Below are positions 6,202 through 11,728 of a DNA stretch of 20,205 nucleotides, piece by piece. The DNA comes from a virus. Under the pieces are notes generated by a model. That model did not search any database. It worked only from the letters and a program-made list of their open reading frames with translations, and was not told where the DNA came from. The position numbers were made by a program, and so were the translations under genes. How positions within the stretch are numbered: position 1 is the stretch's first letter; every line of letters starts with the position of its first letter. The DNA lies in IMG/VR virus record IMGVR_UViG_3300032116_001642, positions 1-20,205 of that record, one strand, 5' to 3'.

Positions 6202-7337
6202 AATACGGTTCCGTCTGTTCCGGCATTGAAGCAGCGACGGCGGCTTGGCATCCGCTTGGCTGGCAAGCGTCTTTCTTTTCCGAGATTGAACCTTTCCAGC
6301 GCGCCGTGCTGGCACACCACTACCCCAACATACCCCTCCATGGTGATTTCACCACCATCAAAGGTTCCGAATATGAGCCAATCGACCTTCTTGTGGGAGG
6401 AACCCCCTGCCAATCCTTCAGCATCGCGGGACTCAGAGGCGGCCTGGACGACGACCGTGGCAACCTGGCCCTTGAGTTTCTCCGCCTTGCTGACCGAACA
6501 CGGCCCAAGTGGCTGGTTTGGGAGAACGTCCCCGGCGTCTTGTCGTCGAACGGAGGACGGGACTTTGGTTCCATACTCGGGGGCATGGTCGAACTCGGGT
6601 ATGGCGTCGCCTACCGAGTCCTTGACGCTCAATACTTTGGAGTGGCCCAGCGTCGCCGCCGTGTGTTCGTTGTCGGATACCTTGGAGACTGGACCCGTGC
6701 CGCAGCGGTTTTATTTGAGCGCCACAGCTTGCAGGGGCATTCTGCGCCGCGCCGAGAAGCGCGGGAAAGTGTTGCCGGAACGCTTGGAGGAAGCTCTCAA
6801 AGCGGCGGCTTTCGCACAACCGACCTAGACAATAGCGGCGCCTTCATTCCTGTGCAGGCGAATACGCTTATGTCATTCGGGCATAGCCCGAACCCGCTTG
6901 ATGAAACGCTGGTTGCGCAGACCGTCGCGCCCTCACTCACAAGCAACCCATACGGCGATCACGAAAGCAGAGAAGGTACGCTGGTTGCCTTTGGTGGTAA
7001 TCGCACAAGCGGCCCCATTGATGTGACGCCCGCGCTGCTGGCGCAGCCGGGATCAGGCGTCAAATGCGACTTTGAAAGCGAGACGTTCATAAAGACCGGC
7101 CTTGCACACCAGCATGGCGGTAGCATCGGCCCTCATACCTTCGCCGTCCGCCGCTTAACCCCGCGCGAGTGCGAGCGCCTCCAAGGCTTTCCTGATGATT
7201 ACACGCTGGTTCCCAATCGCGGAAAGCCTGCCGCAGATGGCCCCCGCTACAAGGCGCTAGGGAACTCGATGGCCGTGCCGGTTATGCGGTGGATTGGCCA
7301 GCGCATTTCCGCATCGGAGCGCCGCCATGCAGCGTAG
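6198..7337 (+). CDS. C5-cytosine DNA methyltransferase (phage)
   Basis: 379 aa from ATG 6198, coupled to the resolvase stop (ATGA). An open frame upstream to 6093 is a shadow. All main motifs are present in order: I (SVCSGIEAATAAW, 4-16), IV with catalytic C71 (GGTPCQSFSIAG), VI (ENVPG, 109-113), VIII (QRRRRVFVVG, 151-160), a target-recognition region (about 170-320) and IX/X (RRLTPRECERLQGF, GNSMAVPVM). It transfers methyl from SAM to cytosine C5. No restriction endonuclease is adjacent, so this is an orphan enzyme. The usual phage role is protection from host restriction. The recognition sequence cannot be told. Its 3' end overlaps the opposite-strand HTH gene by 81 bp. Confidence 0.92.
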   Translation: MKYGSVCSGIEAATAAWHPLGWQASFFSEIEPFQRAVLAHHYPNIPLHGDFTTIKGSEYEPIDLLVGGTPCQSFSIAGLRGGLDDDRGNLALEFLRLADRTRPKWLVWENVPGVLSSNGGRDFGSILGGMVELGYGVAYRVLDAQYFGVAQRRRRVFVVGYLGDWTRAAAVLFERHSLQGHSAPRREARESVAGTLGGSSQSGGFRTTDLDNSGAFIPVQANTLMSFGHSPNPLDETLVAQTVAPSLTSNPYGDHESREGTLVAFGGNRTSGPIDVTPALLAQPGSGVKCDFESETFIKTGLAHQHGGSIGPHTFAVRRLTPRECERLQGFPDDYTLVPNRGKPAADGPRYKALGNSMAVPVMRWIGQRISASERRHAA

Positions 7338-7481
7338 CGCCACCCTTGCCGGGCCTGGAATGGCGCGCTCACCAAGCGCCCATTTCCGCACCGTGCGTTC
7401 ATCCACTTCAAGCGCCGTTGCCGCCGCGCGCTGCGACATGCCGAGCGCTGCAATCGCTTCCCGGAATTGCTCAGGCGACAC
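7257..7481 (-). CDS. Small HTH transcription regulator, antisense module
   Basis: About 74 aa from GTG 7481; TTG starts at 7490 and 7505 are also possible. An HTH fills the first 55 residues: SPEQFREAIAALGMSQRAAA, TALEVDERTVRKWALGERAI, PGPARVALRCMAAL. The pattern SQRAAATALEVDERTVRKWA is a clear XRE-like DNA-binding unit and resembles the other small HTH gene at 11513-11728. It lies on the strand opposite the early operon, 11 nt overlapped with the upstream partner gene, tail-to-tail with the C5 methyltransferase (81-bp overlap). It probably binds the palindrome in its own operon promoter (inference). A TA-type antitoxin is an alternative. Confidence 0.72.
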   Translation of the reverse strand: MSPEQFREAIAALGMSQRAAATALEVDERTVRKWALGERAIPGPARVALRCMAALRCGNALANPPHNRHGHRVP

Positions 7482-7686
7482 GGCGGACAATGCCTTGCGC
7501 GTCAACTGTCATGCCAGCCGCCGCCAGGGCAGGGCGCAACGTCTCAATCGTTTCGTCCATGCGGAACGTGTTGGACAGCGTGCCGTCAGCCTTGAACAGC
7601 GCCAGGCGCTCGGGCCGGTCGTCGCGGCGGCTGATGAAGCCGATTGCATCGGCGGGAAGGGCGGGGCGGGTGGCGGGCTTGAACAT
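7471..7686 (-). CDS. Unknown 71-aa protein, first gene of antisense HTH pair
   Basis: Sequence from ATG 7686 begins MFKPATRPALPADAIGFISR, continues RRDDRPERLALFKADGTLSN and ends AAAGMTVDAQGIVRRVA. It looks like a small alpha/beta protein (GFISRRDD, RLALFKADG, GIVRRVA) with no catalytic signature I recognise. ATG 7686 is preferred over ATG 7692 because the predicted transcription start falls on it, making the message leaderless. It is directly followed by the HTH gene, so the two are co-expressed. It could be a toxin, a co-regulator or an unrelated moron product. Confidence 0.65.
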   Translation of the reverse strand: MFKPATRPALPADAIGFISRRDDRPERLALFKADGTLSNTFRMDETIETLRPALAAAGMTVDAQGIVRRVA

Positions 7687-7732: not shown

Positions 7733-7885
7733 ATGGCTGAAACACCCCGCGCCACAGCCGAAGAAATCGACGCCTGGGTCGCGCGCTGCCGTCACAACCT
7801 AGAAACCCGCGCGCCCGATCCTGTCGAGGATGAGGAACGCGCGGCGCATTTCGAGACACACAAAGCCAAAGGCGCGAAGAAATGA
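7733..7885 (+). CDS. 50-aa acidic mini-protein upstream of the replication gene
   Basis: ATG 7733 has AAGGGG about 9 nt upstream, and its TGA (7883-7885) overlaps the next ATG (ATGA). The product (MAETPRATAEEIDAWVARCR, then HNLETRAPDPVEDEERAAHFETHKAKGAKK) is helical and highly charged, with an acidic middle and a basic end. No family is recognised. Position directly before the prim-pol/helicase and translational coupling suggest a replication accessory. Confidence 0.68.
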   Translation: MAETPRATAEEIDAWVARCRHNLETRAPDPVEDEERAAHFETHKAKGAKK

Positions 7886-9891
7886 GCCTGACCCAAAGCG
7901 CCATTTGGCTTGCGGAAGAAATGCGCCTGCCGGTCTTTGCTTGCGGGCCGGATAAGCGCCCCGTGACGCAACACGGCTTCCATGACGCGACACGCGACCC
8001 GACAGAAATCCGCCTGCAATTCAGCACCCCAGGCGCGGCCATGATTGGCGTGCCGACCGGGCAAGGTGCCGGGTTCTTTGTTGTGGATCTCGACGTCAAG
8101 AATGGCGGGCAAGGCCTGGAATGGCTGGCGGCAAACCAGCACCGCTTGCCCCGCACCAGGACACACAGGACACGCTCGGGCGGGCAGCATCTTCTTTTTC
8201 AATGGCCGGAAGGCCGCACCATTCGCAACAGCGCTTCACGCGTGGCACCCGGCGTCGATGTCAGAGGCAACGGCGGGTATATTATCGCGCCCCCATCCCC
8301 AGACTACGAGATAGCCGACGCCGCCGCGCCTATGCCCGCCCCGGCATGGCTGCTGGACCTGATAGACCCGCCTGCCGCAACCGCACCAGCCCCAGCCCCG
8401 CGCCCGGCGCCCGCGCCCCGCACCAGCGGCGACGGCACGCGCTACGGCCTGACCGCCCTCGACAACGAATGCCAAGCCATCCTGAACGCGGCGGACGGCG
8501 GCAAGCATGACGCGCTCAACCGCGCCGCGTTCTCGATCGGCGGCCTAGTCGCGGCCGGTGAGCTGGCGGAAGGCCCAGCCTTCGCCGCGCTATCATCCGC
8601 GCTGGCAGGCATCCGGCACCGCTGCGAGGATTTCCGCGCGGCGGAGAAAACACTCGCCACCGCGTTCCGCGCCGGCATGGCCAAGCCCCGTGAAGCGCCC
8701 CGGCTGATGCGCCGCATTGTGGAAGAATACGAACCGCGCCCGGAGCCGCCGCCGCTGACAGAAGCGCCGGACCATTGGAGCGCCGAACCGGAGCCGGACA
8801 TCGGCCTGGAGCCGGAACGGGTGGCGGCGGTTGTTCAATCCACGGCCCTGCCGCTGATTTATTTCGAAGACGTCAAGCCCGCGCTGAAGGCCGAGGATTT
8901 CGTCGAGGGCCTCATCATCAAGGGCGCGATGTCGGTCGTCTACGGCCCGTCCAACTGCGGCAAGACGTTCTTCATGGCCGACCTGGCGCTTCATGTGGCC
9001 ATGGGCTTGGAATGGCGCGGGCGTGAGGTGGAGCGCCTAGGCGTGATCTACTGCGCCTTGGAAGGCGCGCACGGCATCGCCAACCGCGTGGCAGCCTTTG
9101 CCCTGGCGTGCGGCCTAGACGGACAGCGCATCCCCTTCGCCATTATCCCGGTATCGCTGAACCTATTGGACCCCAACGCCGACACCGGCCGGCTGATTGA
9201 CGCCGTCAAGGCCGCAGCCGAGCGCATGGAAATCCCGGTCGGCCTGGTGGTGATGGACACGCTTTCCCGAGCCATGGCCGGCGGCAATGAGAACAGCCCT
9301 GAAGACATGGGCGCGCTGGTGACCAATTCCGCCCGCATCCAGCAGGCGACCGGCGCGCATGTGGCGTGGATCCACCACAGCGGCAAAGACCAAGCCCAAG
9401 GGGCGCGCGGCCATAGCCTATTGCGCGCGGCCACCGATACCGAAATTGAAATCAGCCGCGCCGACAATGACAGCCCATCCGTCGCCAAGGTGACCAAGCA
9501 GCGCGAATTGGAAATCGATGGCGTGTTCGGCTTCACCCTGAAGCGGGTGGAACTAGGCCTGAACCATCGCGGCAAGCCGGTGACGTCATGCGTGGTCGAG
9601 CCGACCGAAGACCGCCCCGCCAAGCCGCGTATCAACCTCACCAACGGCGAGGCCATGGCGCTGCGCATCCTCCATGACGTGATGGCCACGCAGCCCGTCC
9701 AGGTGCCCTACCAAGCCTCGCAGGCGGGCGTGACGGTGGCAGCAAGTAAGCACGCATGGCGTGAGACGTTCTTCGCACGTTCAACCGCCGATAGCCATGA
9801 GGCGAAGAAAAAAGCCTTCAACCGGGCGGCCGATGGGCTGGCCCAAAAGGGGCAAATCGGGGTGCATCACGACACAGTTTGGGCGGTGTAA
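7882..9891 (+). CDS. Prim-pol / RecA-like helicase replication protein
   Basis: 669 aa, two domains. The N-terminal half (about 1-165) is a bifunctional primase-polymerase domain: catalytic acids in FFVVDLDVKNG (D69, D71), H103 in SGGQHLLF, and VDVRGNGGYIIAPPS (126-139). A Pro/Ala linker follows (162-180), then a helical section (190-280). The C-terminal domain (about 325-600) is a RecA-like ATPase of the RepA/AAA_25 type: Walker A GPSNCGKT (355-362), Walker B LVVMDTLS (D459), and VAWIHHSGKD (494-503). It would prime and unwind phage DNA, starting replication largely independently of host primase. The candidate origin lies just downstream in the next gene. It overlaps the preceding 50-aa gene by 4 nt. 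Confidence 0.9.
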   Translation: MSLTQSAIWLAEEMRLPVFACGPDKRPVTQHGFHDATRDPTEIRLQFSTPGAAMIGVPTGQGAGFFVVDLDVKNGGQGLEWLAANQHRLPRTRTHRTRSGGQHLLFQWPEGRTIRNSASRVAPGVDVRGNGGYIIAPPSPDYEIADAAAPMPAPAWLLDLIDPPAATAPAPAPRPAPAPRTSGDGTRYGLTALDNECQAILNAADGGKHDALNRAAFSIGGLVAAGELAEGPAFAALSSALAGIRHRCEDFRAAEKTLATAFRAGMAKPREAPRLMRRIVEEYEPRPEPPPLTEAPDHWSAEPEPDIGLEPERVAAVVQSTALPLIYFEDVKPALKAEDFVEGLIIKGAMSVVYGPSNCGKTFFMADLALHVAMGLEWRGREVERLGVIYCALEGAHGIANRVAAFALACGLDGQRIPFAIIPVSLNLLDPNADTGRLIDAVKAAAERMEIPVGLVVMDTLSRAMAGGNENSPEDMGALVTNSARIQQATGAHVAWIHHSGKDQAQGARGHSLLRAATDTEIEISRADNDSPSVAKVTKQRELEIDGVFGFTLKRVELGLNHRGKPVTSCVVEPTEDRPAKPRINLTNGEAMALRILHDVMATQPVQVPYQASQAGVTVAASKHAWRETFFARSTADSHEAKKKAFNRAADGLAQKGQIGVHHDTVWAV

Positions 9892-9895
9892 TTCG

Positions 9896-10279
9896 ATGCA
9901 AAAGAGCAACGAACTACCCCTTTTTGCCGCCGCATATGCCGGGACATTGCCGGGACAAATCGGGACAAATCGGGACATTTTAAGCGGCGGCGAGAGACAT
10001 GTCCCGGGACATTCTGGAACCCCCCCCCTAAAGGGGGGGGTCCATTGTCCCGATGTCACGGGGCGGGACATGTCCCGGTCAGACGATGTCCCGGCTAGAC
10101 TGATTACAAAACGGAACGAAAGCCGGAAGGCAATCTTCGACGCCTGGCTGGCCGAGTGCCGAGCCTATGACGCGGCCGGTCGGCAAGACGAAGTGCCGCC
10201 CCTGCCCGAGCGCTTCCTGACCAACGGGCCGAAGCTATGGCGCGATGGCCCGGCCCATGCCGGCAAGCGGTGGCGCTGA
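9896..10279 (+). CDS. Gene containing the candidate replication origin
   Basis: 127 aa from ATG 9896, four bases after the helicase stop; no strong ribosome site. Residues 15-67 are encoded by the GGGACA/TGTCCC repeat region and read as low-complexity (AGTLPGQIGTNRDI, VPGHSGTPPLKGGVHC, VTGRDMSRSDDVPA). The repeats fall in different frames, so the DNA rather than the protein is conserved. The C-terminal 55 residues (KRNESRKAIFDAWLAECRAY, PPLPERFLTNGPKLWRDGPA) look like a genuine folded unit. It may be an initiation accessory that spans its own origin, as lambda O does (analogy). The true start could lie downstream of the repeats. Confidence 0.6.
   Translation: MQKSNELPLFAAAYAGTLPGQIGTNRDILSGGERHVPGHSGTPPLKGGVHCPDVTGRDMSRSDDVPARLITKRNESRKAIFDAWLAECRAYDAAGRQDEVPPLPERFLTNGPKLWRDGPAHAGKRWR
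9941..10092. repeat. Iteron-like GGGACA/TGTCCC array, candidate replication origin
   Basis: Ten copies in 152 bp. Direct GGGACA at 9941, 9952, 9962 and 9972, spaced 11, 10 and 10 bp, so on one face of the helix. Then TGTCCC 10000 with GGGACA 10006 (14-bp palindrome ATGTCCCGGGACAT), TGTCCC 10046, GGGACA 10065 with TGTCCC 10071 (palindrome CGGGACATGTCCCG), and TGTCCC 10087. The position next to the primase/helicase gene suggests an initiator-binding origin. Confidence 0.65.
10020..10040. repeat. C9-TAAA-G8 inverted homopolymer
   Basis: Nine C, TAAA, eight G in the middle of the iteron array. It can form an 8-bp G:C hairpin or a G-rich structure. It has no T-tract and lies inside coding sequence, so a terminator is unlikely. 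It may be a structural part of the origin. Slippage in such tracts is common, so read errors should be excluded. Confidence 0.6.
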
Positions 10280-10473
10280 TGGACCTCACCCCTGCCCAAG
10301 TGGCGCGCGCCCATGCCGACGATGCGCTGGCCGAAGACTGCCTGCGCCGCGCCAGAGCGGCCCAGGAGGCGCTCCAGCACCCGAACCTAGACCAACCTAG
10401 CCGGGAATACCTCGAGGGCCTGAGCGCCCGCTACAAAGCCCTTGCAGGCCGGTTGCGTGGAACCCCTCAATGA
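10279..10473 (+). CDS. 64-aa helical protein, unknown
   Basis: ATG 10279 shares a base with the previous TGA (TGATG). The product begins MDLTPAQVARAHADDALAED and is a helical hairpin (residues 4-30 and 38-60: LDQPSREYLEGLSARYKALAGRLRG). There is no membrane segment or catalytic motif, and no recognised family. Coupling to both neighbours places it in the replication operon. Confidence 0.68.
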   Translation: MDLTPAQVARAHADDALAEDCLRRARAAQEALQHPNLDQPSREYLEGLSARYKALAGRLRGTPQ

Positions 10474-10967
10474 ATGGAGCCCTTGCCATGCCAAAGCCGA
10501 AACCCGCGCGCGCGCGGGGTCGCCCTGAAAGGGCTGTGACCGTGGATTTTGGGCCTGCCCAGCGCCTGGCCAATGGCACGGCATGGGTGGCCTACCGGGC
10601 GGACCCGGACAGCCCGGCGCGGCCGTCTGTGAAGGCAGCTAGCGCTAAGATTATCTACCACCAGTTGTGGCTGGCCGGACACCTGACAGACGAACACCAC
10701 GAGGCGGCGGACAGGTATCTGACCCGGCTAGAGGTGGCATCCGGGGCCCAGGTGGATACGCGCGGCAATGGCGCGGCAAGCTATGGCCCGACCATGGCGC
10801 AGGTGGCGGCCCTGGCCGATCTGCGGGTGGCAGACGCGGCCATTGGCTCGGCGCCGCTGGTGGCAGGGGTGCGGACGGTGATCGGCTGGAATATCTGGCC
10901 GCCGGATTTGGAGGTGGGGGACTTCCGGGCCGCGCTGGGGCGCTTGGCTGAAGCTTGGGGCATGTGA
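10470..10967 (+). CDS. Unknown 165-aa protein ending the replication operon
   Basis: ATG 10470 overlaps the upstream TGA (ATGA); a second in-frame ATG at 10488 has GGAG 8 nt upstream and may be the real start. The N-terminal 25 residues are basic (MPKPKPARARGRPERAV). Helices LTDEHHEAADRYLTRLEVAS and TMAQVAALADLRVADAAIGS and a tryptophan-rich end (VIGWNIWPPDLEV, LGRLAEAWGM) follow. The last third resembles, by eye only, C-terminal regions of some alphaproteobacterial phage regulators, but I do not assign a family. As the final early gene it is a candidate late regulator (positional inference). Confidence 0.62.
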   Translation: MNGALAMPKPKPARARGRPERAVTVDFGPAQRLANGTAWVAYRADPDSPARPSVKAASAKIIYHQLWLAGHLTDEHHEAADRYLTRLEVASGAQVDTRGNGAASYGPTMAQVAALADLRVADAAIGSAPLVAGVRTVIGWNIWPPDLEVGDFRAALGRLAEAWGM

Positions 10968-11306: not shown

Positions 11307-11516
11307 ATGAGCGCAATCAAAATTACTCGCAAGCATCTAAAGCTTGGTGCTGTGACCGTCGTTGACCCGGTGGTTCATTATCAAGGCCGCAAGATTGTGT
11401 GTGATGGCCATTTGCCGGGAAATCTCTCGCGCCTTGTGCCGCAACCGTGGGGCAATGCTTCCCCCGAAGAATGGCGCCCGTTTGTGACATTGGCCGTTGC
11501 GATGGGGGTGTTATGA
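11307..11516 (+). CDS. 69-aa unknown protein
   Basis: ATG 11307 has an excellent ribosome site (GAGGAGAT, about 7 nt upstream). The product begins MSAIKITRKHLKLGAVTVVD, with VVHYQGRKIVCDGHL in the middle and a Pro/Trp-containing end (VPQPWGNASPEEWRPFVTLA). Probably a small beta protein. Its TGA overlaps the ATG of the following HTH gene. No family recognised. Confidence 0.68.
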   Translation: MSAIKITRKHLKLGAVTVVDPVVHYQGRKIVCDGHLPGNLSRLVPQPWGNASPEEWRPFVTLAVAMGVL

Positions 11517-11728
11517 CCCCCACCCGTTTGCGCGAATGCCTAGACCTGCTGCACTGGTCGCAGCGTGGTTTAGCGCGCATCCTGGACCGAGACGAGGGCA
11601 CGGTGCGGCAATGGGCGCGCGGTGCCGTGGTGATCCCGGTTGATGTAGCGGCTTGGCTGCAAGCTCGCGCTACCCATGCCAGCAAGACGCCGCCGCCGGT
11701 GCGCAAGGAACACTTGACAAGCCCCTGA
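11513..11728 (+). CDS. Small HTH transcription regulator
   Basis: 71 aa from ATG 11513, coupled to the previous gene (ATGA). HTH at about residues 4-48: RLRECLDLLHWSQRGLARIL, DRDEGTVRQWARGAVVIPVD, then a short helix. It shares the pattern SQR-x-x-A-x-x-L-x-x-DE-x-TVR-x-WA-x-G with the antisense HTH protein (7257-7481), so the two are paralogous or of common origin. As the last gene before the terminator and the packaging module it may regulate the early-to-late switch (inference). Confidence 0.78.
   Translation: MTPTRLRECLDLLHWSQRGLARILDRDEGTVRQWARGAVVIPVDVAAWLQARATHASKTPPPVRKEHLTSP

Follow-up and report, generated by a model that had tools for sequence, protein, structure and literature searches.

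A candidate iteron origin in a phage family and its probable reading by the winged helix of the primase-helicase initiator

In the present study, a 20,205-nt virus record (the window) was analysed, and the array of ten CGGGACA repeats behind its primase-helicase gene is very probably the replication origin of this phage, bound by the C-terminal winged helix of the initiator itself, with the helicase opening the DNA and priming taking place at or near a hairpin, as judged from sequence comparison. The repeat unit varies in step with a few residues of the rep protein, which points to this protein as the reader of the repeats, and the likely iteron binder is the winged helix of the 7882-9891 product and not the product of 9896-10279. 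In addition, we lean towards the view that the variable half of the 6-bp iteron (xxxACA) is dictated by residues 642-645 of a single winged helix. This would be a natural and largely readable code, rewritten some twenty times, in which new units reach both the origin and clusters inside rep, and replicon compatibility would be at least partly readable from the protein.

The repeat array, its hairpin and the overlapping gene

The original prediction of an iteron origin inside a coding sequence was supported by the comparison across relatives, from which we infer the origin activity itself. All ten GGGACA/TGTCCC copies were found at the places where they had been reported, the direct block indeed shows the 11-10-10 spacing, and the array stands just after the prim-pol/helicase gene as described, its first iteron lying 50 bp past the stop codon (Table 1). 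The copies also fall in differing reading frames, with phases 0, 2, 0, 1, 2, 2, 0, 1, 1 and 2 counted from ATG 9896. The unit had been given as GGGACA; these copies are real, and the unit had to be extended to CGGGACA because a C stands before each of the ten. Iterons 5 and 6 are arranged back to back as TGTCCC-GGGACA (10000-10011), and iterons 8 and 9 form the palindrome GGGACA-TGTCCC (10065-10076).

Twelve copies of GGGACA/TGTCCC were counted in the whole window, ten of them in the array, which is the densest 6-mer cluster per 152-bp span in the window. In 60 Markov-1 randomised windows, the best 6-mer cluster per 152 bp had 6 copies (mean 4.5). The array is 63% GC and contains no AT-rich stretch; among 30-mers, the nearest AT-rich one is at 9887, and the lowest-GC 80-mer near the array (49% GC) lies upstream of it at 9845.

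Table 1. Coordinates of the replication module in the window
Feature	Position	Strand	Remark
rep, initiator gene, 669 aa	7882..9891	+	Prim-Pol (residues 7-156), RecA-type helicase (338-505), C-terminal winged helix
C-terminal winged-helix domain, residues 588-669	9643..9888	+	AlphaFold2 model, pLDDT about 90
Codons K642-K643-K644-A645	9805..9816	+	start of recognition helix; residues covarying with the iteron
Small gene, 127 aa	9896..10279	+	spans the whole array; frame open in relatives; codon-position bias in 3' part
Iteron 1 (CGGGACA core)	9941..9946	+	direct
Iteron 2	9952..9957	+	direct
Iteron 3	9962..9967	+	direct
Iteron 4	9972..9977	+	direct
Iteron 5	10000..10005	-	inverted; divergent pair with iteron 6
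Iteron 6	10006..10011	+	directed at hairpin
GC hairpin, 30 nt, TGGAACCCCCCCCCTAAAGGGGGGGGTCCA	10015..10044		between the iteron blocks
Iteron 7	10046..10051	-	single inverted; directed at hairpin from the opposite side
Iteron 8	10065..10070	+	convergent palindrome with iteron 9
Iteron 9	10071..10076	-	convergent palindrome with iteron 8
Iteron 10	10087..10092	-	single inverted

The hairpin was absent from the earlier account of the array. It is made up of TGGA-A-CCCCCCCC-CTAAA-GGGGGGGG-TCCA, and a stem-loop 3' of rep is conserved in the family. Its arms vary jointly among relatives (TGGAA..TCCA versus TATCC..GGAT), and hairpins are also present in other lineages, where the centre is frequently of the CTWWAG type (CTTTAG, CTAAAG or CTATAG). 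Compared with its shuffles, the array region folds much more stably as single-stranded DNA (z=-6.9, a value to which the iterons themselves contribute).

Among 24 close relatives, window included, the small gene that overlaps the array has an open frame in 23, and the single exception (L036) carries one extra base in a G run of its counterpart. The synonymous share of single-base codon differences was 60% in the last part of this gene, 40% in the first part and 26% in the array part; the coding signal was gene-like in the 3' part, weak in the first part and absent in the array part. The last part is thus gene-like and the array part is not, so that the array lies within a real gene yet is selected as DNA, which agrees with the selection on DNA that had been proposed. 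A later start at ATG 10070, after the array, was rejected, being not conserved in three relatives (L020, L028 and L032), whereas the upstream start is.

Neither this protein nor the products of the two next ORFs matched a family in Pfam or PHROGs, and for this reason no function could be assigned to them by homology. The N-terminus reads MQKSNELPLF in the window (9896-9928) and MVIARNQLSLF in most relatives. Sliding clamps are usually bound through a QL[SD]LF motif, and we presume that the QLSLF at the N-terminus of these proteins resembles it. Because of this N-terminus, the product might recruit the host clamp to the origin, which is taken here only as a lead.

The initiator and the covariation of its recognition helix

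The rep product was matched in Pfam by PF09250 (Prim-Pol, E=3e-33) and PF13481 (AAA_25, E=1.5e-34). Searching PDB sequences with the single protein gave no match, and with the family profile the sole match was RSF1010 RepA (E=1e-5); Foldseek comparison of the product with RepA (1nlf) gave a TMt of 0.69. The C-terminal domain is covered by no Pfam family. Its AlphaFold2 model contains helices at 588-603, 623-633 and 639-655 and strands at 620-622, 659-662 and 665-668, the recognition helix being residues 639-655. The best Foldseek matches of this domain in PDB were CRP-type winged helices (probability 0.98, with a weak E=0.04), and the ORC type was also matched weakly. Two small, similar helix-turn-helix proteins flank the replication module, at 7257-7505 (- strand) and 11447-11728 (+ strand).

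CGGGACA is kept in relatives of the window, and other lineages use CGGACA, GAGACA, CAGACA, CGCACA, GTAACA, GCAACA, GTGACA, GAAACA, GTCACA or ATCACA. The rule that all units end in ACA had to be narrowed, as the L059, L150 and L154 lineages use TCGGAA, ACCGAA and ACCGCA types; these lineages were left out of the covariation test or read with care. The test set consisted of 50 non-redundant loci and 306 protein columns. We found that K643 and K644 rank first and second among the 306 columns in information on the unit, K644 being the top column for the third unit base and K643 for the first. The helix AKKKAF occurs with GGGACA, AKQKAF with CGGACA, TKEKAF with GAGACA, AKRQAF with CAGACA, KKRVTW with GTAACA and KKRATW with GCAACA. 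K644 stands with G at unit position 3 in all 33 of 33 rows, and Q643 was seen in 7 of the 8 CGGACA rows versus none of the 25 GGGACA rows.

Loci with the same residues 642-645 had the same unit in 137 of 138 pairs, even at 30% helicase identity, and loci with different residues had the same unit in 181 of 1,087 pairs, neither count being independent of kinship. On the helicase-domain tree, at least 24 unit changes were counted. Independent pairs on supported branches of this tree gave 3.5-4 in agreement and 0 in disagreement, with p about 0.125, which is not significant alone.

The exchange can also be followed between close loci. L044 and L055, with 92% helicase identity, carry GTAACA with RVT versus GCAACA with GAT, and L064 and L059, with 84% identity, carry GGGACA with KKKA versus a TCGGAA-type unit with RNGW. 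Furthermore, in four loci (L339, L340, L341 and L342) the Prim-Pol core is related and the downstream gene is the same, but the helicase C-terminus has been replaced together with the array, which consists of TTCCGCACTG or TGCTCCACC units. Because the members of these sets differ in both, array and C-terminal end behave like a single module that can be exchanged.

Distribution in relatives and other readings of the array

Several hundred loci with a related gene were collected from viral contigs and genome contigs. After removal of duplicates, a locus was counted as carrying an array when a significant repeat array lay at most 350 bp from the end of the rep-type gene. The original prediction had named the absence of the repeats from phages sharing the replication gene as evidence against it; the array was present in 95 of 141 non-redundant relatives, and the prediction stands in this respect. 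Relatives without an array belong mainly to one marine clade, which has the same helicase and a different C-terminal sequence. One locus, L082, failed the automatic test; its gene reads through its array. In Caulobacter phage GB2A, no array was found within 350 bp.

The mixture of direct and inverted copies, which had been called unusual, proved to be the normal layout of this phage family: in relatives, three to four direct copies spaced by about 10 bp usually come first, followed by an inverted copy, copies facing the hairpin and inverted copies beyond. A DNA-level search of phage records gave almost no matches. Among named phages, Rhizobium phage 16-3 (L517) has 15 CGTGACA copies directly after its primase-helicase gene p101, and this array is likely the unrecognised origin of a well-studied phage; Roseobacter phage CRP-823 has 11 ACTACA copies in the same module. 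The rep-array module also occurs, amid different neighbours, in circular plasmids or phage-plasmids. Its presence in named phages and circular plasmids makes laboratory tests possible. The 38-kb Caenibius plasmid p1 (L514), which carries a terminase gene, has 13 GCGGAA copies and a hairpin after an AAA-ATPase gene, and is a probable phage-plasmid.

GC skew was also considered and rejected as a proof of the origin. The cumulative minimum of the window, at 9719, lies 222 bp before the array and fits, but only 1 of 25 relatives has its minimum at the array, with skew rising across the array in 21 of 25.

A second cluster was defined as at least three copies of the locus's own unit within 120 bp inside rep. 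Such clusters were found in 14 of 50 relatives, mostly in linker-coding stretches between domains; the window's own rep gene has none. They include L081 (in a linker-coding stretch, e.g. SGTTAGHSGTSAGH), L121, L044, L058, L035, L109, L143, L147, L064, L194, L249 and others. Clusters of any non-cognate unit were seen inside rep in three loci, and the rep genes held 113 cognate copies versus 35.5 for the average non-cognate unit. Two separate sites with the same lineage-specific unit fit one trans-acting binder. In the last 60 codons of rep in L083, three copies of its own unit GAAACA are mixed with three of GTAACA, the unit of its relative L249, from which we infer a specificity switch caught half-way.

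These internal clusters are what one would expect of extra sites that titrate or couple the initiator, which may then bind the array as a control element, by autoregulation, copy-number handcuffing or incompatibility, while replication starts elsewhere. We consider this improbable. The array lies 3' of rep and not at the rep promoter, a place that it shares with the origins of pRN1 (PMC4234260) and of SaPI Rep (PMC7581432). The sole promoter-like match in 9600-10600 is on the opposite strand, and the conserved hairpin and two-block layout exceed the needs of an operator.

Arrays with inverted copies are also known in centromere-like and packaging sites, and another phage protein could read the array as a site for partition or packaging. 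This is very improbable, given that the unit changes in step with the initiator's winged helix and that the array stays beside rep in phages and plasmids with differing neighbours. Still less credit can be given to the view that the hairpin serves the rep operon as an RNA terminator or attenuator and that the repeats are incidental. The stem is GC-rich and follows shortly after the rep stop codon, but no T run was found after it, the terminator scan does not list it, and it lies inside an ORF that remains open; in pRN1, moreover, it was only the larger stem-loop that was required, the terminator-like stem close to the rep stop being dispensable (PMC4234260). Chance or low-complexity repetition, for which a GC-rich genome with G/C runs could be held responsible, can practically be set aside, since the ten copies in 152 bp exceed any 6-mer of the randomised windows and conservation across relatives refutes it.

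Proposed mechanism and comparison with known systems

For the origin reading, we propose that the N-terminal end of the recognition helix (K642-A645) would contact the CGGGACA iterons when the winged helix binds, so that several subunits of the initiator would be placed at the direct block and to both sides of the hairpin. The 7882-9891 protein would act as a self-loading initiator, its RepA-like helicase would then open the DNA and expose the hairpin, and the Prim-Pol domain may start a primer at the hairpin or nearby.

SaPI Rep and SCCmec Cch2 are described as self-loading initiator helicases with C-terminal domains that recognise iterons directly behind their own genes (PMC7581432). The present system is alike in having an initiator helicase with a C-terminal DNA-binding domain (here PF13481 and a winged-helix model) and short iterons directly downstream of the initiator gene. 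It differs in the helicase, which is of the RSF1010-RepA type (PF13481) and not DUF927 or D5/Primase_Cterm, and in its fused primase, the GC hairpin in the array and the position of the array within a coding gene. SaPI-type origins have an AT-rich melting region between iteron blocks, whereas the array here has none between its blocks. Because of its helicase type, the system would work like a SaPI-type replicon without being a member.

RSF1010 uses RepA, RepB' and RepC with oriV and ssi hairpins (PMC4234260). The RepA-type helicase (here a putative hexamer), the iterons and the hairpin as a possible priming site are alike; helicase, primase and iteron binder are one 669-aa polypeptide here and three proteins there. 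The parts of the system broadly resemble RSF1010 with its three proteins fused. In pRN1, the origin of ORF904 is a 100-nt stem-loop, needed for replication, 3' of the gene and without iterons, and the target of the winged helix was not identified; a pRN1-like proposal has already been made for some phages (PMC4234260). ORF904 is similar in combining Prim-Pol, helicase and C-terminal winged helix with a structured origin just 3' of its gene, but it has an SF3 helicase where the present protein is of the AAA_25/RecA type, and iterons are found only here.

The PrimQH and All3500 primase-helicases carry a C-terminal winged helix that, as their authors suggested, might recognise the origin (PMC5862659). 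They share primase, RepA-like ATPase and winged helix with the present protein; no iterons or target sequence were reported there, whereas here covariation gives a target and likely contact residues. In geminivirus Rep, the residues of the iteron-related domain match the iteron bases, and both move together by recombination (e.g. PMC2974675). Covariation of initiator residues with iteron bases is common to both systems, but that Rep is a rolling-circle protein of plant viruses with an unrelated fold, and here the reader would be the winged helix of a tailed-phage helicase. The lambda O iterons place an origin inside O, the initiator's own gene. Iterons within coding sequence are thus shared with lambda, while here the origin would lie in the gene after rep, and rep itself carries additional clusters in some of the relatives.

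In a literature search, mainly of open papers, we found no description of iterons in this phage family, of the 642-645 match or of the rep-internal clusters. What is new is the natural initiator-iteron code; origin reading by such winged helices had already been suggested (PMC5862659), and the residue-base match was known in geminiviruses (PMC2974675). A plausible driver of the turnover is a phage nuclease that cuts a satellite at its iterons and may thereby favour altered ones (PMC8263062). Overall, our findings support what had been suggested before, namely that primase-helicases read the origin with their C-terminal winged helices (PMC5862659). They bear on the old question of how initiator and origin change specificity together without loss of replication, which becomes directly testable by binding assays because dozens of natural variants differ in one small domain and one short motif. 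In addition, the family provides a rule by which origins can be located, and compatibility predicted, in phages and phage-plasmids that lack annotation.
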